NCBI GenBank assembly: GCA_017411435.1
Contig: JAFQQD010000060.1
Location: 1 to 35,338, forward strand
Origin: Clostridia bacterium
GTDB taxonomy: Bacteria; Bacillota; Clostridia; UMGS1883
DNA: 35,338 bases
Direction: 5' to 3'
Under the pieces are notes generated by a model that worked only from the letters and a program-made list of their open reading frames with translations, did not search any database and had not been told where the DNA came from. The position numbers and the translations under genes were made by a program. Below, piece by piece: positions 5,473 through 19,077 of the stretch (position 1 is its first letter; every line of letters starts with the position of its first letter).

Positions 5473-5501
5473 TTGACACTCTCTTTGTTTGTGGTTATAA
5501 T
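5473..5501 (+). promoter_or_regulatory. Full-consensus sigma-A promoter of the branched-chain acid cluster
   Basis: TTGACA (5473-5478) and TATAAT (5496-5501) have an ideal 17-bp spacer. This is the only convincing promoter between the unknown gene ending at 5409 and the LeuA-like gene at 5730. Transcription would start near 5508 and first cover the leader ORF. Confidence 0.85.
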
Positions 5502-5529
5502 CAAGCGTAAGAAATGTGAGGTAACAGGT

Positions 5530-5628
5530 ATGAATACATTGCTTTTTGCAAACTACATACTTCTCCTTATCGCTATTATTATTCTAATTACAAAGAAGAG
5601 TAAGAATAGCGCTATTTGTCGTGTGTAA
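5530..5628 (+). CDS. 32-codon Leu/Ile-rich leader peptide (or small membrane peptide)
   Basis: ATG 5530 is preceded by GTGAGGTAACAGGT, and the ORF ends at TAA 5626. Codons 10-20 (5557-5589) read ILLLIAIIILI, ten of eleven being Leu or Ile, and include ATA and CTA codons. The C-terminal part is basic and polar (KKSKNSAICRV). A perfect terminator follows 40 bases after the stop and lies between this ORF and genes for branched-chain metabolism. The best reading is an attenuation leader, comparable in size and design to IlvL of enteric bacteria. The alternative is a true single-pass membrane micropeptide, since a hydrophobic helix is by nature Leu/Ile-rich. Confidence 0.65.
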   Translation: MNTLLFANYILLLIAIIILITKKSKNSAICRV

Positions 5629-5685
5629 AAAGGGAAAAGTAAAGTGTATCTTATATTTTGCATTTTATGACCTGCGGCAAGTGGT
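5611..5685 (+). promoter_or_regulatory. Candidate antiterminator pairing in the leader
   Basis: GCTATTTGTCGTG (5611-5623), at the end of the leader ORF, can pair without a gap to TGCGGCAAGTGGT (5673-5685), the 5' arm and loop of the terminator. The 13 pairs comprise 7 Watson-Crick and 6 G-U. A ribosome finishing the leader would cover the first strand and let the terminator form. One stalled at the Leu/Ile codons would leave it free. The many G-U pairs make this moderate evidence only. Confidence 0.4.
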
Positions 5686-5701
5686 GCCGCAGGTCTTTTT
5701 T
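5669..5701 (+). terminator. Rho-independent terminator/attenuator before the LeuA-like gene
   Basis: A perfect 11-bp GC-rich stem, GACCTGCGGCA (5669-5679) / TGCCGCAGGTC (5685-5695), with loop AGTGG is followed by a run of T. Only 28 bases separate it from the next start codon and no promoter is visible in them, so transcription of the downstream genes must read through it. Confidence 0.85.
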
Positions 5702-5729
5702 ATGAAATTTTTTATGAGGAGAAAGAACG

Positions 5730-7115
5730 ATGAGAAAAATCAAAATCACAGACATCACACTTAAAAAACTGTCACAGGAGCGCGGTGTTTCTCTACTTTT
5801 CAGAGAAAAGACTGCTATTGCTGCCTGCGCAGATTCATTAGGCGTTGATGCCGTTGAACTATCTCCTATAAAAAGCCTTCGTGAAGATACTATCATCTAT
5901 AAAACTATCGCACAGAATGTTAAGAAAAGCACTCTTGCAATCCCCGTAGGATTTTGTGAAGAGGATGTTGAAAACGCATGGGAATGTGTTCGTGAGGCAG
6001 TAAATCCGCGTCTTCAGGTTGAGCTTCCCGTATCAACAGTTCAGATGGAATATATTTACCATGTAAAAGCAGACAAGATGCTTTCAAAAATAGCATCTCT
6101 TGTAAAAAAATCAAAAGAGCTTTGTGCAGATGTTGAATTTTCCGCACTTGACGCAACCCGTGCTGATGAGGAGTTTCTTATCTCCGCAGCAAAAGAGGCT
6201 GAGGCAAACGGTGCAAGCATGATTAACCTTTGTGACGATGCAGGAATTTCTCTTCCGGAGGAAATTGCCGCACTTGTTAAAAAGGTTAAGGAAAATGTAA
6301 AAATCCCCGTTTTTGTGCAGGTTTCAAATGGTATCGGTATGGCAATTGCCTGTGCAGTTTCAGCGGTAAATGCGGGAGCTGACGGTCTTAAATGCCTTAT
6401 GACCGAGGGAGATGCTCTTTCCATGAGCGCAATTGCAAATGCAATCAAGTCACGCGGTGCAGACCTTAAAATTGAAGCATCGCTCGACAATACAAAGATA
6501 TATGCAAGCATAGAGGAAATGCTTTCTAAAATAAACCACGAAACATACGAGAACAAGGCTGTCAGCGAAAAGAATAAGATTCTTCTTGATTCTGACAGTA
6601 CTCTTACAGATGTTGCAGCTGCAGCGGCAATCTTGGGCTACGACCTTTCAGACGAAGACAACGGCAAAGTGCACAAGGCTCTTTCTCAGGTATGCGAAAA
6701 GAAGGGCAGCGTAGGAGCAAAAGAGCTTGAAGCCCTTATCGCAAGTTATGCGATGCAGGCTCCCTCAACATACCATATTGAAAATTACACCACAAACTGT
6801 TCTAATCTGACCGGCTCTATGTCGCAGGTGACACTGCGTCAGGGAGACGAACTCCTGTGCGGCGTAAGTACAGGCGATGGCCCTATCGACTCAGTATTCC
6901 GCGCAATTGAGCAGAGCATCGGTTTTCATTATGAACTTGACGATTTCCAGATTCAGGCAGTAACCGATGGCAAGGAAGCACTCGGCAGCGCAATCGTGCG
7001 CCTTCGTAACAACGGCAAACTTTACAGCGGCAACGGTATTTCAACCGATATCGTGGCGGCAAGTATCAGAGCATATATAAATGCACTCAACAAAATAGTC
7101 TTCGAGGAGGAATAA
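5730..7115 (+). CDS. LeuA-like protein with degenerate active site and LeuA regulatory domain
   Basis: The 461-residue protein has the layout of 2-isopropylmalate/citramalate synthases: an HMGL-like TIM barrel (1-270), linker helices with the family wording LGYDLSDED and ELEALI (about 305-345), and a C-terminal LeuA allosteric domain (about 358-455; SQVTLRQGDE, GDGPIDSVFRAIEQ). The catalytic signatures are changed. The usual TTLRDGEQ reads DITLKKLSQERG (7-18), the metal-binding HxHND reads QVSNG (about 196-200), and GKHSG reads LDSDS. The protein therefore lacks the Arg and His ligands needed for acetyl-CoA condensation and is probably not a working synthase. It may be a leucine-sensing or regulatory subunit, or have other chemistry. 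AGGAGA precedes the ATG and the gene is first after the attenuator. Confidence 0.8.
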   Translation: MRKIKITDITLKKLSQERGVSLLFREKTAIAACADSLGVDAVELSPIKSLREDTIIYKTIAQNVKKSTLAIPVGFCEEDVENAWECVREAVNPRLQVELPVSTVQMEYIYHVKADKMLSKIASLVKKSKELCADVEFSALDATRADEEFLISAAKEAEANGASMINLCDDAGISLPEEIAALVKKVKENVKIPVFVQVSNGIGMAIACAVSAVNAGADGLKCLMTEGDALSMSAIANAIKSRGADLKIEASLDNTKIYASIEEMLSKINHETYENKAVSEKNKILLDSDSTLTDVAAAAAILGYDLSDEDNGKVHKALSQVCEKKGSVGAKELEALIASYAMQAPSTYHIENYTTNCSNLTGSMSQVTLRQGDELLCGVSTGDGPIDSVFRAIEQSIGFHYELDDFQIQAVTDGKEALGSAIVRLRNNGKLYSGNGISTDIVAASIRAYINALNKIVFEEE

Positions 7116-7116
7116 T

Positions 7117-9579
7117 ATGAAAATCACTTTTTCAACCAAGCATGTAAACCGTGCTTCCTTCCTCGATATGTGCAACTACGCCTATGATTACGGCTATGCA
7201 GGGTTTGAGATATATGACGCGATTCAAGAACGCAAGCAGCATCACGACAGTATTCTCCGTACTGACCGCGTACCCGACTCCAAGCGCAAGCTCGTGAATC
7301 GTGGGCTTACAGTTTCGGCGCTCGTATATCCTTGCAGCATCGAAAGTGAAGAAGCAAACGGTGACGCAATCTTAAAATATGTTGATATGGCGCGCAGCGC
7401 AGGAATAGAAAGAATTATTCTTCGTAATGAGGTTAAAACATCAAACGAAGTTCTTTCCGAAAAACTCAGTAAGGCTATAAAGCGTGCTGAGGAGACAGAT
7501 ATCCAGATTCTTTTTGAAACCGCAGGATATCTTGCCGAAACCGAGAATGTAATTGATATCATAAATTATTTCTCGTCTGCGGCAGTCGGTGCCGCGTGGA
7601 ATATGCGCGAAACCTACTTTAACGCAGGGGAGAGCGCAGAAACAACAATCAAGTCGCTCGGTGCATACATAAAATATGCAAGAATGGGCGATATGAAAGA
7701 CGGCAAAACAGTTTTAATCGGTGAGGGCGACCTCCCCGTAGAAAACTTTATCAATGCTCTTTCATCACTTAACTATGACGGATTTATCTGTGTAGCGTGG
7801 AACGAAGAAGTAAACGATTCCGACATTGTACTTACTCATTTTGCAAACTACATTGGTAACATCTCACGCGAAAAGATAGAATACGATAAGCCGTACTACA
7901 ATCGTGACAAGACAGGAACATTCGTCTGGAAAAAGTACGATGTTATTGACGCAACTTTTTCAGATGTGCTTGACACAATGGCGGAAAAGTACCCCGACCA
8001 GTACGCATTCAAGTATACAACACTTGACTATACAAGAACATACTCGCAGTTCCGCCGCGATGTTGATGAATGTGCAGCGGCACTTATATCGCTCGGCGTA
8101 AAGGCAGGCGACCATGTTGCCATATGGGCGACTAATGTTCCTGCGTGGTATGTCACATTCTGGGCAACAACAAAAATCGGTGCAGTTCTTGTAACGGTTA
8201 ATACTGCATATAAAATTCACGAAATCGAGTATCTCTTAAAGCAGTCCGACACACATACACTCGTTATGATAGAAGATTGCAAGGATATCAATTATAAGGA
8301 AATTATAGAAGAACTTTGCCCCGAACTTAAAACTATGACCGCGGGCGATGCTCTCTATTCTAAAAAACTTCCCTTCCTTCGCAATGTTGTAACAGTCGGC
8401 TTTACTATGGACGGCTGTCTTACATGGGAACAGATGCTTTCACGCTCTGCACTCGTTCCGCAGGAAGAGGTCAGACGCCGCGCATCACTTGTAAAGCCTG
8501 ACGATGTATGTAATATGCAGTATACCTCAGGAACAACAGGCTTCCCCAAGGGTGTAATGCTTACCCACAGAAACATTGTAAATAACGGTAAAACAATCGG
8601 TGACAGAATGGATTTATCAACTGCCGACCGTATGATGATTCAGGTGCCGATGTTCCACTGCTTCGGTATGGTGCTCTCAATGACATCAACGATGACACAC
8701 GGCGGAACACTCTATCCAATGCCGTACTTCTCGCCCAAGAGCTCACTCGCGTGCGTGAATGATGAGCATATCACTTGCTTCAACGGTGTTCCGACAATGT
8801 TTATCGCAATGTTCAATCATCCCGATTTCGCAAAGACAGATTTTTCGTATATGCGTACTGGTATTATGGCAGGTGCAAACTGTCCTGCAGACCTTATGCG
8901 CCGTGCCGCAGATGAGATGAATATGCGCGAAATCATTTCCGTTTACGGCCAGACCGAGGCTTCGCCCGGTTGCACAATGGGCGAGGTTAATGAGGACCTT
9001 GACCACCGTGTTGAAACTGTCGGAAGTGCGTTCCCCGGAGTTGAATGTAAAATCATTGACCCCGAAACAGGCGAAGAGCTTCCCGATGGTGAAAGCGGCG
9101 AATTTGTTGCACGCGGCTTTAATATAATGAAAGGCTACTATAAAATGCCCGAAGCAACCGCGCAGACCATTGATAAAGACGGATGGCTCCATTCAGGCGA
9201 TATATGTTGCCGCACTTCTGACGGATATTTTAAGGTAACAGGCAGACTTAAGGATATGATTATCCGCGGTGGCGAAAACCTTTATCCGCGCGAAATTGAG
9301 GAGTTTTATCTTACTAATCCCAAGGTTCGCGATGTCCAGGTTGTCGGTGTGCCGGATGAAAGATATGGCGAAGAATGTTGCGCATGGGTAATTCTTCACA
9401 AGGGCGAAGAATCCAGCGAGGAAGAAATGAAGGAATACGGCTACGCGTCAATCGCGCGTCATAAAGTACCGCGTTACTTCATCTTCACAAACGAATTCCC
9501 CATGAATGCCGCAGGCAAAATCTTAAAGTACAAGATGCGTGAAGAATCAATCGAGCGCCTCGGACTTAAAAAGAATTAA
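7117..9579 (+). CDS. Fusion of sugar-isomerase-like TIM barrel and AMP-forming acyl-CoA synthetase
   Basis: The 820-residue protein has two parts. Residues 1-250 resemble the xylose isomerase-like/AP endonuclease 2 TIM-barrel superfamily (GYAGFEIYD near 28-36, IQILFETAGY near 128-137, GFICVAWNEE near 225-234). Residues 265-820 are a full ANL-superfamily adenylating enzyme: YTSGTTGFPKGV (about 468-479), YGQTEASPG, GWLHSGD, GRLKDMIIRGGENLYPREIE, and the catalytic-Lys motif NAAGKILKYK near the end. The second half should activate a carboxylic acid to its acyl-CoA through an acyl-adenylate. The role of the first half is not clear. The gene starts one base after the preceding stop with GAGGAGG upstream. 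Between a LeuA-like gene and ilvE, the substrate is likely a short branched-chain acid. Confidence 0.85.
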   Translation: MKITFSTKHVNRASFLDMCNYAYDYGYAGFEIYDAIQERKQHHDSILRTDRVPDSKRKLVNRGLTVSALVYPCSIESEEANGDAILKYVDMARSAGIERIILRNEVKTSNEVLSEKLSKAIKRAEETDIQILFETAGYLAETENVIDIINYFSSAAVGAAWNMRETYFNAGESAETTIKSLGAYIKYARMGDMKDGKTVLIGEGDLPVENFINALSSLNYDGFICVAWNEEVNDSDIVLTHFANYIGNISREKIEYDKPYYNRDKTGTFVWKKYDVIDATFSDVLDTMAEKYPDQYAFKYTTLDYTRTYSQFRRDVDECAAALISLGVKAGDHVAIWATNVPAWYVTFWATTKIGAVLVTVNTAYKIHEIEYLLKQSDTHTLVMIEDCKDINYKEIIEELCPELKTMTAGDALYSKKLPFLRNVVTVGFTMDGCLTWEQMLSRSALVPQEEVRRRASLVKPDDVCNMQYTSGTTGFPKGVMLTHRNIVNNGKTIGDRMDLSTADRMMIQVPMFHCFGMVLSMTSTMTHGGTLYPMPYFSPKSSLACVNDEHITCFNGVPTMFIAMFNHPDFAKTDFSYMRTGIMAGANCPADLMRRAADEMNMREIISVYGQTEASPGCTMGEVNEDLDHRVETVGSAFPGVECKIIDPETGEELPDGESGEFVARGFNIMKGYYKMPEATAQTIDKDGWLHSGDICCRTSDGYFKVTGRLKDMIIRGGENLYPREIEEFYLTNPKVRDVQVVGVPDERYGEECCAWVILHKGEESSEEEMKEYGYASIARHKVPRYFIFTNEFPMNAAGKILKYKMREESIERLGLKKN

Positions 9580-9613: not shown

Positions 9614-10681
9614 ATGCTTAATATCACAATTGAGAAAACAACCAATCCCAAGACAAAACCTGCCAAGGGCGAAAAACTCGGCTTTGGTAAAATCTTTACA
9701 GACCATATGTTTGTAATGGACTATACCGAGGGCAAGGGCTGGCATGACGCAAGAATCGTTCCCTTCCAGGACCTTGTAATGAGCCCTGCCGCAATGGTAT
9801 TCCACTACGGTCAGGAAATGTTTGAAGGTCTTAAGGCGTATAAGGGTGTTGACGGAAAGGTTCGCCTTTTCCGCCCCGATATGAACGCCAAGAGAACAAA
9901 CGACACTAACGACCGTCTTTGCATTCCGCGTCTTCCCGTGGAAGATTTCGTAGAAGCAGTTAAGGCAGTTGTTAAGGTTGACGAGGACTGGATTCCTACA
10001 GAAGACGGCACATCACTTTACATTCGCCCCTTCATTATCGCGACAGACGAATTTTTAGGTGTTGCCCCCTCAAAGACTTATAAGTTCATCATCATCCTTG
10101 CTCCCAGCGGTGCATACTACGAAAGCGGCCTTGCTCCCGTAGGTATCTGGATTGAAGACGAATATGTAAGAGCCGTTAAGGGCGGTATGGGCTTTGCAAA
10201 GACAGGCGGTAACTACGCAGCAAGCCTTATTGCACAGGTTAAGGCACATGACGACGGTTACTCACAGGTACTCTGGCTTGACGGTGTTGAAAGAAAATAC
10301 ATCGAAGAAGTTGGCGCTATGAACATCTTCTTCAAGATTGACGGGAAAATCGTAACTCCAATGCTTAACGGTAGCATCCTTCCAGGTGTTACAAGAAACA
10401 GTGTAATTCAGCTTTGCAAAAAGATGGGCTACGAGGTTGAGGAACGCCGCATCAGCGCAGAAGAACTTATCACCGCGCAGAAGAGTGGCAAGCTCGAAGA
10501 ATGCTTCGGCACAGGTACTGCGGCTGTTATTTCTCCCGTTGGAAAACTCCGTTATGTTGATGATGTAATGGTTATCAATAACAACGAAATCGGTGAAGTA
10601 AGCCAGAAACTCTACGATACACTCACAGGTATTCAGTGGGGTAAGCGCGAGGATGATATGGGATGGACAGTAGAAGTATAA
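9614..10681 (+). CDS. ilvE: Branched-chain amino acid aminotransferase
   Basis: The 355-residue class IV PLP aminotransferase interconverts Leu, Ile and Val with their 2-oxo acids, using glutamate/2-oxoglutarate. The PLP Lys lies in FAKTGGNYAASL (Lys196), and EEVGAMNIFF and GTGTAAVISPVG are typical of the BCAT group. The start at ATG 9614 has GAAAGGAAG upstream; an in-frame extension to 9539 overlaps the previous gene and adds unrelated basic residues. The next gene begins inside the last 19 bases of this one. IlvE supplies the link between the cluster's 2-oxo acids and amino acids. Confidence 0.94.
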   Translation: MLNITIEKTTNPKTKPAKGEKLGFGKIFTDHMFVMDYTEGKGWHDARIVPFQDLVMSPAAMVFHYGQEMFEGLKAYKGVDGKVRLFRPDMNAKRTNDTNDRLCIPRLPVEDFVEAVKAVVKVDEDWIPTEDGTSLYIRPFIIATDEFLGVAPSKTYKFIIILAPSGAYYESGLAPVGIWIEDEYVRAVKGGMGFAKTGGNYAASLIAQVKAHDDGYSQVLWLDGVERKYIEEVGAMNIFFKIDGKIVTPMLNGSILPGVTRNSVIQLCKKMGYEVEERRISAEELITAQKSGKLEECFGTGTAAVISPVGKLRYVDDVMVINNNEIGEVSQKLYDTLTGIQWGKREDDMGWTVEV

Positions 10682-11352
10682 AACGCATTACAATTTTCAG
10701 CGGTCATTACGGCAGCGGAAAAACAAATGTCGCAGTAAACTACGCTCTCTGGCTCAAAAGTCAGGGGGGAGAGGTTTCGATAGCCGACCTTGATATAGTT
10801 AATCCTTATTTCAGAACAAAGGATTCGATGAAAGTTCTTTTGGAAAACGGAGTAAAACTTATATCATCGGAATACGCCAACAGTAATGTCGATGTACCTG
10901 CTCTTCCTGCAGAAACATATTCTGTGCTCCACGACAAAAAACAGCGTTGCGTGATTGATGTCGGCGGAGACGACCGCGGTGCACTTGCACTCGGGCGCTA
11001 CAGTGAAGGCATTATAGAAGATGGCGATTATGAACTTCTTTTCGTAATCAATAAATTCCGCCCACTTACAAGAAATGCATGTTTGACACTTGAAATTATG
11101 GCGGAAATTGAAAATGCGTGTCATATGAAATTTACCGCAATAGTAAATGATTCAAACCTCGGTGATGAAACGGGCGAGGAAGATGTACTGTCTTCGGTAG
11201 CTTACGCAAACGAGGTTTCAGAAAAAGCAGGCATACCCATAAAGATGACTTGCGTCAAAAAAGATTTGTATGAAAAGCTTTCCGGAAAAATAGAAAATTT
11301 AATGCCCATTGACCTTTATGTAAGACAAAGCTGGGCAGAAAGGAATGAATAA
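10663..11352 (+). CDS. P-loop ATPase, CobQ/MinD/ParA-like, associated with VOR genes
   Basis: A 229-residue protein with a deviant P-loop FSGHYGSGKT (12-21), switch-like segments DLDIVNPYFRTKD (about 43-55) and VIDVGGDDRG (about 96-105), and VINKFRPLT further on. It belongs to the SIMIBI/MinD-type nucleotide-binding group but has no Cys pair for carrying Fe-S clusters. It overlaps ilvE by 19 bases, and the ferredoxin-type subunit gene starts one base after its stop. An accessory role in maturation or regulation of the oxidoreductase is plausible but unproven. Confidence 0.75.
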   Translation: MDSRSIKRITIFSGHYGSGKTNVAVNYALWLKSQGGEVSIADLDIVNPYFRTKDSMKVLLENGVKLISSEYANSNVDVPALPAETYSVLHDKKQRCVIDVGGDDRGALALGRYSEGIIEDGDYELLFVINKFRPLTRNACLTLEIMAEIENACHMKFTAIVNDSNLGDETGEEDVLSSVAYANEVSEKAGIPIKMTCVKKDLYEKLSGKIENLMPIDLYVRQSWAERNE

Positions 11353-11353
11353 A

Positions 11354-11557
11354 ATGGCAAAAGTAACCTTTGATAAGGATTTGTGTAAGGGTTGCGGTCT
11401 TTGCGTGACTGCCTGCCCGAAAAAAATTGTTGCTCTTTCAAGTGACCTCAATAAGCGCGGATATCATCCCGCCGAGGTGAAAGAGCAGGATAAGTGCATC
11501 GGTTGTGCATTCTGTGCAACAATGTGCCCCGACTGTGTAATCACGGTTGAGAAGTAA
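11354..11557 (+). CDS. vorD: 2-oxoacid:ferredoxin oxidoreductase, delta (2[4Fe-4S]) subunit
   Basis: This 67-residue bacterial-type ferredoxin subunit has two cluster motifs, CKGCGLCVTACP (11-22) and CIGCAFCATMCP, which carry two [4Fe-4S] clusters. It passes electrons between the thiamine-diphosphate site and soluble ferredoxin. The start at ATG 11354 is preferred over ATG 11345, because AAAGGA at 11339-11344 is nine bases from the former and touches the latter. It is followed by the alpha, beta and gamma subunit genes. Confidence 0.88.
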   Translation: MAKVTFDKDLCKGCGLCVTACPKKIVALSSDLNKRGYHPAEVKEQDKCIGCAFCATMCPDCVITVEK

Positions 11558-11570
11558 GGAGGAAGAAAAA

Positions 11571-12635
11571 ATGGCTGATAAAGTTTTAATGAAAGGTAAC
11601 GAAGCTTTAGCCGAAGCCGCTATCATGGCAGGCTGTAAGCATTACTTCGGTTACCCCATCACACCGCAGACAGAGGTTGCGGCTTATATGGCAAAGAAAA
11701 TGCCTAAGACAGAAGGCGGCGTTTTCCTTCAGGCAGAAAGTGAAATCGCGGCAATTAATATGGTTATCGGTGTTGCTTCTACAGGAAAGAGAGTTATGAC
11801 ATCTTCCTCAAGCCCCGGAATCAGCCTTAAGAGTGAAGGTATCAGCTACCTTGCAGGTTGCGACCTTCCTGCGCTTATCATCAATGTACAGCGTGGCGGC
11901 CCCGGTCTTGGCGGTATCCAGCCCTCGCAGTCTGACTATTTCCAGGCTACAAAGGGTGGCGGACACGGTGACTTCCATCTTCTTGTACTTGCTCCAAACA
12001 GCGTTCAGGAAATGGTTGATATGGTGTTCAAGGGATTTGACCTTGCTGAAAAGTACCGTATGCCCGCAATGATTCTTTCTGACGGTACTATGGGTCAGAT
12101 GATGGAACCCGTTTCGCTTGAAAAAGGCGTAATCAATGAGTACGACAAGTCATGGGCACTTACAGGAACAAAGGGCGAGAGAAAACCCAACATCGTAAAT
12201 TCTCTTTACATTTCACCCGATGAACTTGAAAAACTCAACTTTGAGCGTTACGAACGCTACAAGAAGATAGAAGAAACAGAGGCTATGTACGAAGAATACC
12301 TTATGGACGATGCCGAAATCTGTATCGTTGCATTCGGTGTAGCATCCCGTGTTTCAAAGAATGCTATCGACATCGCAAGAAAAGAAGGCATCAAGGTTGG
12401 TATGATTCGTCCTATCACACTTTGGCCCTTCCCCAAGAAGGTTCTCAACGATGCTGCTGACAAGGTAAATAAGTTCATCAGTGTTGAACTTTCAATGGGA
12501 CAGATGATTGAGGATATCGAGCTTGCTATCCGTTGCAAGAAGGAAGTTCTTCTCTGCAACCGTACAGGCGGTATGATTACCACAACAGGGGATGTTCTTG
12601 ACAAAATCTACGAAGCGAACGGAGGTAAAAACTAA
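11571..12635 (+). CDS. vorB: 2-oxoacid:ferredoxin oxidoreductase, alpha subunit (VorB type)
   Basis: The 354-residue alpha (pyrimidine-binding) subunit contains GYPITPQTEV (about 25-34), the Glu-containing block LQAESEIAAINMVIG, SSSSPGISLK, and GGPGLGGIQPSQSDYFQATKG-type wording. It matches 3-methyl-2-oxobutanoate (2-oxoisovalerate) ferredoxin oxidoreductase VorB and is also close to KorA (2-oxoglutarate). Neighbouring ilvE and the Leu/Ile-rich leader favour branched-chain substrates. AGGAGG precedes the ATG, and its stop overlaps the next start (TAATG). Confidence 0.88.
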   Translation: MADKVLMKGNEALAEAAIMAGCKHYFGYPITPQTEVAAYMAKKMPKTEGGVFLQAESEIAAINMVIGVASTGKRVMTSSSSPGISLKSEGISYLAGCDLPALIINVQRGGPGLGGIQPSQSDYFQATKGGGHGDFHLLVLAPNSVQEMVDMVFKGFDLAEKYRMPAMILSDGTMGQMMEPVSLEKGVINEYDKSWALTGTKGERKPNIVNSLYISPDELEKLNFERYERYKKIEETEAMYEEYLMDDAEICIVAFGVASRVSKNAIDIARKEGIKVGMIRPITLWPFPKKVLNDAADKVNKFISVELSMGQMIEDIELAIRCKKEVLLCNRTGGMITTTGDVLDKIYEANGGKN

Positions 12636-13381
12636 TGGTAGTATTTGAAAAACCCAATGCACTTACAGAAAACACACTCCATTATTGCCCCGGTTGTACA
12701 CACGGTATTATTCACCGTCTTGTAGCAGAGGCTCTTGACGAACTTGGCGTAACCGGCAGAACAATCGGTGTTGCATCGGTTGGTTGCAGCGTATTCACAT
12801 ACAATTACTTCAACTGCGATATGGTTCAGGCGGCTCACGGTCGTGCTCCGGCAGTTGCAACAGGTGTAAAAAGAAGTGACAAAAACAATATCGTATTCAC
12901 ATACCAGGGCGATGGAGACCTTGCCGCTATCGGTACTGCTGAAACTGTTCACAGTGCGGCTCGTGGCGAAAACATCACAGTAATTTTCGTAAACAACGCA
13001 ATCTACGGTATGACAGGCGGTCAGATGGCGCCCACAACACTTCCCGGACAGAAGACACAGACTTCTCCCTACGGTCGTGATGTAGAAGCAGTTGGTTATC
13101 CCGTAAAGGTATGCGAAATGCTTTCTCAGGTTGACGGTGCTACATACCTTGAAAGAGTTGCAGTAAACAATGTTGCAAATGTTAAAAAGGCAAAGGCTGC
13201 AATCAAAAAGGCTTTCCAGAATCAGATTGAAGGCAAAGGTTTCTCACTTGTAGAAGTTCTTTCAACCTGTCCTACAAACTGGGGCCTTGCTCCTGATAAG
13301 GCACTTTCATGGCTTGAAGAAAATATGCTTCCCTACTATCCGTTGGGAGTATATAAAGATAAGTATGCCGAGGAAAAGTAA
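12635..13381 (+). CDS. vorA: 2-oxoacid:ferredoxin oxidoreductase, beta (thiamine diphosphate) subunit
   Basis: The 248-residue protein has the ThDP/Mg motif GDGDLAAIGTAE followed by VNNAIYGMTGGQ (about 92-130), and an N-terminal YCPGCTHGIIHR block. It carries out the thiamine chemistry: decarboxylation of the 2-oxo acid, or in reverse carboxylation of acyl-CoA using reduced ferredoxin. The start codon overlaps the stop of the alpha subunit, indicating translational coupling and equal amounts. Confidence 0.88.
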   Translation: MVVFEKPNALTENTLHYCPGCTHGIIHRLVAEALDELGVTGRTIGVASVGCSVFTYNYFNCDMVQAAHGRAPAVATGVKRSDKNNIVFTYQGDGDLAAIGTAETVHSAARGENITVIFVNNAIYGMTGGQMAPTTLPGQKTQTSPYGRDVEAVGYPVKVCEMLSQVDGATYLERVAVNNVANVKKAKAAIKKAFQNQIEGKGFSLVEVLSTCPTNWGLAPDKALSWLEENMLPYYPLGVYKDKYAEEK

Positions 13382-13399
13382 GAGAGGAGAGAATTTATA

Positions 13400-13930
13400 A
13401 TGAATAAAGAAATTTTAATTGCCGGTTTCGGCGGACAGGGAATTCTCTTTTCAGGTAAATTCCTTGCATACGAAGGACTTATCGATGGTAAGGAAGTAAG
13501 CTGGCTTCCTTCATACGGCCCCGAAATGCGCGGTGGTACAGCAAACTGCAGTATCATTTTAAGTGATAATGCAATCGGTTCTCCCATCGTTTCGGAACCC
13601 GACATTTTAATCGCGATGAATCTTCCCTCGCTTGATAAGTACGAAAATGAAACTAAAAAGGGCGGACAGATTTTCATCGACAGCTCTCTTATCGACAGAA
13701 AGGTAGAGCGCACAGATGTAGAAACATACTACATCCCCGCAACAAAAATGGCTTCTGATGAGGGACTTACAGGTCTTGCAAATATGATTATGATTGGACA
13801 TATGATTGCAAAGAGCGGCATCATTCCCGAAGAAAACATTGAAAAAGCAATGCAGAAGGTCGTTCCCCCCACAAAGCAGAATATGTTTGACCTTAATATG
13901 AAGGCAGTAAAGCTCGGATACGAATTCTAA
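13400..13930 (+). CDS. vorC: 2-oxoacid:ferredoxin oxidoreductase, gamma subunit
   Basis: The 176-residue gamma domain protein has the signature IAGFGGQGILFSGK (7-20) and SYGPEMRGGTANC (about 38-50), involved in CoA binding and subunit contact. It completes a four-subunit enzyme in the order delta-alpha-beta-gamma. GAGAGGAGAG precedes the ATG. Confidence 0.88.
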   Translation: MNKEILIAGFGGQGILFSGKFLAYEGLIDGKEVSWLPSYGPEMRGGTANCSIILSDNAIGSPIVSEPDILIAMNLPSLDKYENETKKGGQIFIDSSLIDRKVERTDVETYYIPATKMASDEGLTGLANMIMIGHMIAKSGIIPEENIEKAMQKVVPPTKQNMFDLNMKAVKLGYEF

Positions 13931-13966: not shown

Positions 13967-14518
13967 ATGAATACACAGATTAAAGATATCGGAATGCGTC
14001 TTGCTTCACTTCGTGAGGATTTTGAAATTAGTATTGAAGAAATGGCACAAAAACTTGGCGAAGACATAGAAATTTATAAGAAGTATGAAAACGGCGAAAT
14101 GGATTTTTCATTCAGTTTTATTTACAATGCTGCAGAAATCTTAGGCGTTGATGTTCTTGACCTGATTAGCGGAGACCAGCCGACACTTTCTATGTGTAGC
14201 ATGGTTAAAAAGGGTCAGGGCTACAGCGTAAAGCGTGAACACGAGTACGACTATAAGCATCTGGCATACACCTTCAGGAATAAAAAAGGCGAACCGTTTT
14301 TGGTTACTATTACCCCTGACAAGGCAGCACCGGTACTTCACGGTCACGAAGGACAGGAGTTCAACTATGTCATTTCAGGCAAAATGAAACTCTTCATCGG
14401 GGATATTTCCTACGAACTTGAAGAGGGCGACAGTGTTTACTTCGACTCAAGTGTGCCCCACGCGGTACAGGCAATAGGCGATGACGACGCACAGTTCATC
14501 GCAGTAGTTATGAAATGA
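13967..14518 (+). CDS. XRE-cupin transcriptional regulator
   Basis: The 183-residue protein has an N-terminal helix-turn-helix of XRE type (residues about 5-62) and a C-terminal single cupin barrel (about 115-183; LHGHEGQEFNYVISGKMKLF, then EEGDSVYFDSSVPHAV). XRE-cupin proteins usually bind a small ligand in the cupin and act as local regulators. It sits after the VOR genes with GGAGG before the ATG, and directly before an acyl-CoA synthetase. Its ligand may be the acid or acyl-CoA handled by the cluster; this is inference. Confidence 0.85.
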   Translation: MNTQIKDIGMRLASLREDFEISIEEMAQKLGEDIEIYKKYENGEMDFSFSFIYNAAEILGVDVLDLISGDQPTLSMCSMVKKGQGYSVKREHEYDYKHLAYTFRNKKGEPFLVTITPDKAAPVLHGHEGQEFNYVISGKMKLFIGDISYELEEGDSVYFDSSVPHAVQAIGDDDAQFIAVVMK

Positions 14519-14547
14519 CAACAAACCAAGAATGGAGGCGCCATGTT

Positions 14548-16245
14548 ATGGCAATATATGAAAAATTTGTTGGTGCATCAAGAGATGATTTCCTTTCCCT
14601 CAAGGATGCACAGACAAACTATACACTTAAGTACCGGGACGATTTTAACTTCGCATACGATGTAATAGATGTTCTCGGCACAGAAAAACCCGACAAACTC
14701 GCAATGGTATGGCTTTCAGCAGACAAGAGCGTGGAGAAAAGATTTACTTTCCGCGATATGATGCTTGCGTCAAACAAGGCGGCAAACTACTTTAAGTATA
14801 TGGGCATCAAAAAGGGCGATACAGTAATGCTCACCCTTAAGAGAAGCTACTTCTTCTGGTTCTGTATCCTCGGTCTTCACAAAATAGGTGCAGTCGTTGT
14901 TCAGGCAACTGATATGCTCAAGGGTAAGGACTATGTTTATCGCTGTAATGTTGGTAACATCAAGGCTGCAGTTATCACAGGCGACGGTCATGCTACCGAA
15001 TATTTCGATGAAATGCAGGACCAGTACGACCATCCTATCCTTAAGTTTGTAACAAAGCATAAAGACGCAGGCGAAGGCTGGATAGATTTCGAAGCAGGCT
15101 TTGAAATGGCAAGCGACCAGTGGCAGAGACCGTCAGGCGATGAGGATACCAATGTAAACGATACAATGCTTATGGCATTTTCATCAGGTACAACAGGCTA
15201 TCCCAAAATCATCACACATAACTTCAAGTATCCGCTTGGCCACATTATGACAGGCGTATTCTGGCACAGAGTTGTAGACGGTGGCTTGCACTTTACAATC
15301 TCTGACACAGGATGGCTCAAATCCCTTTGGGGCAAAATCTACGGTCAGTGGTTTGGCGAATCTGCAGTTCTCGTTTACGATTTTGACAAGTTTGACGGTG
15401 CAGACATTCTCAAAGTTTTGCAGGATTATAAGGTTACCACCTTCTGCGTACCGCCTACAATGTACAGAATGATGCTCTTAAACGATGTTGAAAAATACGA
15501 CCTCTCATCACTTACGCATTGTTGTACAGCAGGCGAGGCATTAAACCCCGAAATCTACAACAACTGGCTCAAGGCAACAGGTCTTAAAATTTACGAAGGC
15601 TTCGGTCAGACAGAAACGACTCTTTGTATCGCGACAATCTATCCGTGGACAGAACCTGTTCCCGGTGCAATCGGTCTTCCCGTTCCCGGATTTGATGTTC
15701 ATATCCTCGATAGTGAGGACCAGTCATGCCCCCGCGGTACTACTGGCGAAATCTCTATCCGTGTTTTAAGCCGCGACAGAAAGGCGTGTGGCCTTCTCGA
15801 CACCTACAACTTCAGCAAGGAAGATACGAAAAAGGCAATGCACGACGGCTTCTATCACACAGGCGACACCGCTTATCGTGATGAGCGCGGACTCTTCCGC
15901 TATGTGGGTAGAAACGATGATGTTATCAAATCTTCCGGTTACAGAATCGGACCCTTTGAAATCGAGAGTGTTCTTCTTGAACATGCCGCAGTTGCCGAGG
16001 TTGCCGTAACAGGTGTACCCGATCCCATCCGTGGATTTGCAGTAAAGGCGACAATCGTTCTTGCAAAGGGCTTTGAGCCATCAGATGAGCTTACAAAAGA
16101 GCTCCAGACATATGTAAAGACAAATACGGCTCCCTACAAATATCCCAGAATTGTGGAATATGTAGCAGAGCTTCCCAAAACCTTCAACGGAAAAATCAAG
16201 CGTAATGCAATCCGTGAAAAGGATTTGGAGAATACTTTGCAGTAA
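14548..16245 (+). CDS. AMP-forming acyl-CoA synthetase (acetyl/medium-chain type)
   Basis: This 565-residue ANL-superfamily ligase has FSSGTTGYPKII (core P-loop), YEGFGQTETTL, GFYHTGDTAYRDERG, GRNDDVIKSSGYRIGPFEIE (hinge region) and the catalytic Lys in FNGKIKRN near the C-terminus. It converts a carboxylate, ATP and CoA to acyl-CoA, AMP and pyrophosphate. The wording resembles ACSM-type short/medium-chain or aryl-acid ligases more than acetate-specific Acs. ATG 14548 is preferred because GGAGG lies nine bases upstream; an in-frame ATG at 14515 overlaps the regulator stop and has no such site. It ends the cluster, just before a strong terminator. Confidence 0.88.
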   Translation: MAIYEKFVGASRDDFLSLKDAQTNYTLKYRDDFNFAYDVIDVLGTEKPDKLAMVWLSADKSVEKRFTFRDMMLASNKAANYFKYMGIKKGDTVMLTLKRSYFFWFCILGLHKIGAVVVQATDMLKGKDYVYRCNVGNIKAAVITGDGHATEYFDEMQDQYDHPILKFVTKHKDAGEGWIDFEAGFEMASDQWQRPSGDEDTNVNDTMLMAFSSGTTGYPKIITHNFKYPLGHIMTGVFWHRVVDGGLHFTISDTGWLKSLWGKIYGQWFGESAVLVYDFDKFDGADILKVLQDYKVTTFCVPPTMYRMMLLNDVEKYDLSSLTHCCTAGEALNPEIYNNWLKATGLKIYEGFGQTETTLCIATIYPWTEPVPGAIGLPVPGFDVHILDSEDQSCPRGTTGEISIRVLSRDRKACGLLDTYNFSKEDTKKAMHDGFYHTGDTAYRDERGLFRYVGRNDDVIKSSGYRIGPFEIESVLLEHAAVAEVAVTGVPDPIRGFAVKATIVLAKGFEPSDELTKELQTYVKTNTAPYKYPRIVEYVAELPKTFNGKIKRNAIREKDLENTLQ

Positions 16246-18826: not shown

Positions 18827-19077
18827 GCTGTGACATGACAGACGATGAAGCGGGAGGTTGCTACCATGTGGGTAGGTTTTTCCGTGGAGAATGTCCAATT
18901 CTTGAAATTGGGCGCCAGTCACTGTACAACATGATAAAGCTTTGCACATCTGTGCCCACTTTCATGTAGTACCCGGAGTCTAGCTCTGGGTTTTAATATG
19001 GCAAAAGGCGAAACGCCCGGCGCCGTGTACAGTCCGTCGCATGAGTCAGCGAAAAACTATTTTTAGGAGGCTTAGCA
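18827..19077 (+). promoter_or_regulatory. Structured 5' leader of the S10 operon
   Basis: About 250 bases of untranslated RNA with clear pairings. GACAT (18832-18836) / ATGTC (18891-18895) encloses CTACC/GGTAG (18861-18875). CCAATT/AATTGG (18895-18911) is a second hairpin. A long-range helix ACTGTAC (18921-18927) / GTACAGT (19027-19033) closes a domain holding ACATGA/TCATGT (18929-18967), GCACA/TGTGC, GGCG/CGCC and a terminator-like hairpin ACCCGGAG/CTCTGGGT (18971-18991) followed by TTT. Autogenous control by a ribosomal protein, as for L4 on S10 leaders elsewhere, is the likely role. Confidence 0.7.

Follow-up and report, generated by a model that had tools for sequence, protein, structure and literature searches.

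The window, a stretch of 35,338 nucleotides (contig JAFQQD010000060.1, assembly GCA_017411435.1), belongs to an uncultured Clostridia genome of 2.0 Mb that is 97% complete (G000). Its relatives named below are metagenome-assembled genomes, mostly from the ruminant gut. The locus comprises a leader region at 5473–5729 and the operon that follows it, with the genes listed here.

5730–7115, forward strand: LeuA-like gene (HMGL and LeuA_dimer), first in the operon
7117–9579, forward strand: TIM-barrel/acyl-CoA synthetase fusion
9614–10681, forward strand: branched-chain aminotransferase ilvE (TIGR01123, 412.7 bits against a cut-off of 250)
10663–11352, forward strand: P-loop NTPase-like gene (ParA-like match below cut-off)
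11354–11557, forward strand: ferredoxin-like delta subunit of a 2-oxoacid oxidoreductase
11571–13930, forward strand: VorB-like alpha, beta and gamma subunits of a 2-oxoacid:ferredoxin oxidoreductase (PRK07119 VorB, 541 bits against a cut-off of 399)
13967–14518, forward strand: HTH-cupin regulator-like gene
14515–16245, forward strand: acyl-CoA synthetase, nearest model MbcS (branched-chain acids), below the MbcS cut-off

The ilvC model found no match in the window's genome and matched in 14/14 control genomes, and the leuC model gave only a sub-threshold match there, in a 654-residue frame. Given these results and the gene content, the operon probably turns branched-chain acids into amino acids via acyl-CoA synthetase, the VorABCD-like oxidoreductase and ilvE. 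Through it, this genome probably makes its branched-chain amino acids from such acids, which would be relevant in the rumen and hindgut. Elsewhere in the window (18836–18918), an S10-Clostridia ribosomal protein leader precedes a ribosomal protein operon.

The leader region contains the following parts.

5473–5501, forward strand: promoter, TTGACA (5473–5478), 17-nt spacer and TATAAT (5496–5501)
5517–5522, forward strand: putative ribosome-binding site TGAGGT of the leader ORF, with GAGG 8 nt upstream of the ATG
5530–5628, forward strand: leader ORF MNTLLFANYILLLIAIIILITKKSKNSAICRV, 32 codons, from ATG at 5530 to TAA at 5626–5628; homologous in-frame ORFs occur in relatives
5560–5568, forward strand: candidate Leu control codons CTT-CTC-CTT (codons 11–13); Leu is found here in the five closest leaders
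5584–5586, forward strand: rare candidate Leu control codon CTA (codon 19), aligned with CTA in 7/7 leaders of the genus
5571–5611, forward strand: pause hairpin 1:2 (5571–5585 with 5597–5611), −12.4 kcal/mol, present in all leaders folded
5609–5622, forward strand: antiterminator strand (region 2) within the end of the leader ORF, carrying the near-invariant motif AGYGCTNNTTGTCGTG and pairing with 5674–5687
5674–5687, forward strand: antiterminator partner (region 3), the 5' arm and loop of the terminator, covarying with region 2 in family f12
5669–5701, forward strand: intrinsic terminator 3:4 and T run; outer pairs covary among seven leaders

The initial annotation had read this region as a leader-peptide attenuator, and its account of the visible parts was borne out. 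The promoter matches the full consensus at 12/12 positions, and a TTGACA/TATAAT-like promoter is also found 5' of related leaders. The ORF has 32 codons, with ILLLIAIIILI at codons 10–20 as described. Between this ORF and the first gene lies the perfect 11-bp terminator (5669–5695, GACCTGCGGCA-AGTGG-TGCCGCAGGTC, followed by six T; −21.3 kcal/mol). It starts 40 bases past the leader stop, and one such terminator was found where shuffled sequences gave 0.1. The 28 bases between the end of the T run and the ATG at 5730 are indeed promoterless by our scan. An antiterminator of 13 positions with six G-U pairs had also been proposed; the pairing stood, but its extent did not. We find 14 contiguous pairs, five of them G-U, at −20.7 kcal/mol, an energy matched by 0/500 shuffles of the ORF strand. 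The pause hairpin (5571–5585/5597–5611) is a third element that had been overlooked, and its discovery completes the classical 1:2/2:3/3:4 layout.

Five other species of the window's genus (G001, G002, G004, G005 and G006) have leaders of this layout before the orthologous LeuA-like gene; four were recovered by DNA search and the fifth, G001, was recognized by position and sequence. In G003, of the same genus, the LeuA-like gene has a T-box, and it is ilvE that follows a leader of this kind. A first covariance model, built from seven leaders, found further examples in family f12 (G337 and G388, LeuA-like gene) and in family f18 (G322, O-acetylhomoserine sulfhydrylase). A second model added six more leaders before LeuA-like genes (G445, G449, G450, G452, G453 and G455) and one, in G464, before a methionine gene. 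Family f12 thereby reaches a total of eight genomes with a same-layout leader before the orthologous LeuA-like gene; the G445 leader, apparently identical to that of G337, is possibly a contaminant. In G099 (family f11), the LeuA-like gene follows a more diverged leader, with the codons CTA CTA CTC ... CTA CTT and an antiterminator of −14.5 kcal/mol that has GCCG for GUCG. The leader of G035 is more loosely related, and its antiterminator is weak (−9.4 kcal/mol). Weak model matches at L094, L098–L100, L123–L125 and L130 were rejected as not being leaders.

Alignment of the orthologous leaders, which the initial annotation had called for, showed both Leu control codons and covarying pairs to be conserved. 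Three core pairs of the pause hairpin alternate across leaders (G-C/G-U/A-U, C-G/U-A and A-U/G-C), and the outer terminator pairs swap between GC, AU and UA among the seven aligned genus leaders. Within the genus, changes in the antiterminator are one-sided only. Two-sided change is seen in family f12, where one pair is A-U in three leaders and G-C in four, which may reflect one shared event. Exchanging strands among f12 leaders gave about −6 kcal/mol for an A-type motif with a C-type loop, against −12 to −16 kcal/mol with their own partners. Antiterminator energies range from −11 to −21 kcal/mol across the 15 leaders folded; those of G337, G453, G455, G449 and G452 were equalled or beaten by 45–150 of 500 shuffles. 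The alternative pairing was nonetheless present in every leader examined, weakly in G035, and mutually exclusive pause hairpin, antiterminator and terminator are kept in all related leaders except G035. The initial annotation had named freely varying codons and a lack of alternative pairing as grounds for dropping its reading; neither pattern was seen.

We then modelled folding of the nascent RNA up to the antiterminator end. With a ribosome placed at a control codon, the predicted antiterminator probability was 0.79–1.00 in the 15 leaders; with the ribosome at the stop codon, it was 0.00 in 14/15, the exception being G337 (0.39). Free nascent RNA of the window leader, with no ribosome, still gave 0.84, and the pause hairpin and antiterminator overlap by just 3 nt. 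At equilibrium, the full-length RNA of most leaders favours the terminator even when a ribosome is stalled on it, so the switch decision, here modelled, would have to be kinetic. A ribosome extends about 15 nt beyond the first base of its P site. With CTA codon 19 in the A site, it would end at about 5596, just before the 3' arm of the pause hairpin. At the stop codon, it is predicted to span 5608–5638 and hence the entire antiterminator strand.

Together, these features indicate that 5473–5729 very probably works as a ribosome-mediated transcription attenuator responsive to leucine supply. RNA synthesis would begin just past 5501, with a ribosome trailing the polymerase along the leader ORF. 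When leucyl-tRNA is plentiful, the ribosome would reach the stop at 5626 and cover 5609–5622. The nascent RNA would be left with the terminator at 5669–5695 only, and transcription would stop before the operon. When leucyl-tRNA is scarce, the ribosome would halt at CTT CTC CTT and then at the rare CTA at 5584, blocking the 5' arm of the pause hairpin. The strand 5609–5622 would then be free to pair with 5674–5687 once this is made, taking the 5' arm of the terminator first and letting the polymerase continue into the operon. If no ribosome is present, the antiterminator would face competition from the pause hairpin, and the terminator would be the default. The mechanism itself is that of classical ribosome-mediated attenuation and has strong comparative support from the aligned leaders, their compensatory changes and their codon enrichment.

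The single hydrophobic stretch of the leader peptide is also typical of a small transmembrane protein. The ORF could then be a membrane protein gene with its own terminator, the operon being fed by read-through and free of starvation control. We consider this very improbable. It is the codons rather than the residues that are conserved: codons 10–19 are identical at 8/10 positions in five species, versus 10/42 of the conserved Leu, Ile and Ala codons in the downstream gene. Between families, just the RNA-pairing part of the ORF is kept, and the RNA pairs show compensatory changes. The leader of G337 (L095, 1475–1580) has an ORF ending in TAG right before the motif, which runs on in frame (NSAICRV-stop). 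An ORF that stops ahead of the conserved part speaks against a protein function, and suggests that it is as RNA that the motif is retained.

Codon choice also bears on the amino acid sensed. CTA makes up 5/554 Leu codons in the window's genes. It accounts for 8/36 Leu codons in the genus leaders versus 12/218 in LeuA-like genes (p 0.003), and for 21/41 in f12 leaders versus 14/251 (p 4e-12). Window genes and LeuA-like genes served as the codon-use baseline, and these p-values are optimistic, as related leaders are not independent. The ribosome-binding site, the Leu codons and the CTA enrichment all point to a translated ORF with control codons. In the Salmonella leu attenuator, the rare CUA likewise serves as the control codon (PMC1183508).

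A joint Leu/Ile signal had been proposed initially. Leucine as a signal was upheld and is the likelier one, because orthologous genes carry T-boxes with a Leu CUC specifier and the rare CTA codons appear to be selected; the joint part of the proposal fared less well. The same attenuator sensing isoleucine, or isoleucine and leucine together, is an unlikely alternative overall. It would account for the ILLLIAIIILI stretch and the seven Ile codons in the window ORF, and a ribosome stalled at Ile codons 16–18 would mask the pause hairpin. These are, however, the common codons ATT and ATC, with ATT ATT doubling as pause hairpin sequence, and f12 leaders have fewer Ile codons and many Leu and CTA codons. 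The Leu CUC T-boxes of the orthologous genes likewise weigh against it. Leucine is thus the likely signal of the window leader, judging from sequence comparison.

T-boxes, which sense uncharged tRNA directly, precede the orthologous gene in most other genera, and the closest ones carry GAA-CUC-A/G, a leucine specifier. Rfam T-box scores before these LeuA-like genes were 129–143 bits, with one at 103. The window leader showed no match to the T-box covariance model (RF00230), no GGUACCGCG sequence and no specifier loop. On a tree of 56 LeuA-like proteins, 33 genes had T-boxes and 12 had this leader, and the leader label changed at least twice on well-supported branches. Row L097, with an abnormal branch and probably a broken gene model, was left out of the argument. 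The window's genus is nested inside a 22-row clade that otherwise has T-boxes, so the leader probably replaced a T-box in the window's lineage. Its source in this genus may have been transfer from f12-like bacteria, or an ilvE leader as in G003; its presence in separate lineages may likewise reflect transfer or parallel origin. One contig of JAFUKG010000032 carries two LeuA-like genes (L047 and L048), both 70% identical to the query and each with a T-box.

The putative control codons vary with the downstream gene, being Leu for the LeuA-like gene, Leu/Ile for ilvE and Met for O-acetylhomoserine sulfhydrylase. The f18 leader (G322) encodes MISNAFFIVNMMCAVMLLKKGMHKSADCRVK, in which Met codons replace the Leu run. 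At L096 and L128 (G322 and G464), an O-acetylhomoserine sulfhydrylase gene stands behind the same arrangement, with Met codons. We tentatively propose, at slightly less than an even chance, a transferable cassette: a near-fixed antiterminator strand (AGYGCTNNTTGTCGTG) with a matched terminator, whose upstream codons are swapped to pick the amino acid, and which moved between Clostridia families and displaced the Leu T-box here. An exact-pattern scan for AGYGCTNNTTGTCGTG in 391 genomes of the class gave 14 matches, one being the window. Nine of the 14 were dismissed as chance, lying inside other genes or lacking a leader, in agreement with a reversed-pattern control. A phylum-wide search of 398 genomes found nothing beyond the window itself, so the cassette is rare. 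A separate leader at L129 (1370–1680, G477:C136) places a DAHP synthase gene behind a Phe/Tyr-rich ORF, MRNLLALTSAYFYFSFTGFYYRKAYLRA, and a terminator. This leader lacks the SAxCR motif and is probably a further case of ribosome-mediated attenuation.

Conservation is stronger in the motif AGYGCTNNTTGTCGTG than in the strand it pairs with. This hints at some additional constraint, such as would exist if the leader RNA bound a protein or metabolite (a riboswitch or T-box variant) and the ORF were incidental. There is little to recommend this reading. No Rfam cis-regulatory family reached its gathering score in the window leader and the T-box signature is missing, and Leu/CTA enrichment, with Met codons in the leader before a methionine gene, also speaks against it. 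Attenuation by a translating ribosome remains our preferred explanation. The leader family is apparently new, as an RNA family absent from Rfam, in its replacement of a T-box and in its exchangeable control codons; the literature searched, which omits most subscription journals, held no earlier description. Our results suggest that enteric-style attenuation is an alternative to the T-box on one operon in uncultured gut Clostridia, and closely related genomes allow comparison of the two on orthologous genes. They also suggest that new amino acid specificity could arise by codon change with the switch kept. The conserved cassette offers a search model for leader peptides overlooked by gene finders and Rfam.

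Among known systems, the T-box (RF00230) regulates the orthologous LeuA-like gene in most relatives through a leucine specifier, and its signature is missing in the window. The ilv-leu attenuator of S. aureus also belongs to a Firmicute and controls a branched-chain amino acid operon through a Leu/Ile leader peptide. In layout, its 26-aa peptide has Ile then Leu codons, with the terminator 52 nt after the stop, and it stands in place of the B. subtilis T-box (PMC5794164). It differs from the window in serving a canonical operon, with no reported cassette common to other operons. Exchange of T-boxes and leader peptides in Firmicutes is likewise seen with His leader peptides, which replace T-boxes before hisS*/hisZ in Bacilli (PMC2965389) and include one for hisZ in C. 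difficile (PMC4833913), but these concern histidine and other genes. The enteric leu and ilv attenuators share ORF control codons, the 1:2/2:3/3:4 structures and the rare CUA with the window (PMC1183508). They belong to another phylum. A further difference is the antiterminator strand, which in the window forms part of the ORF's end and is conserved between operons of different families.
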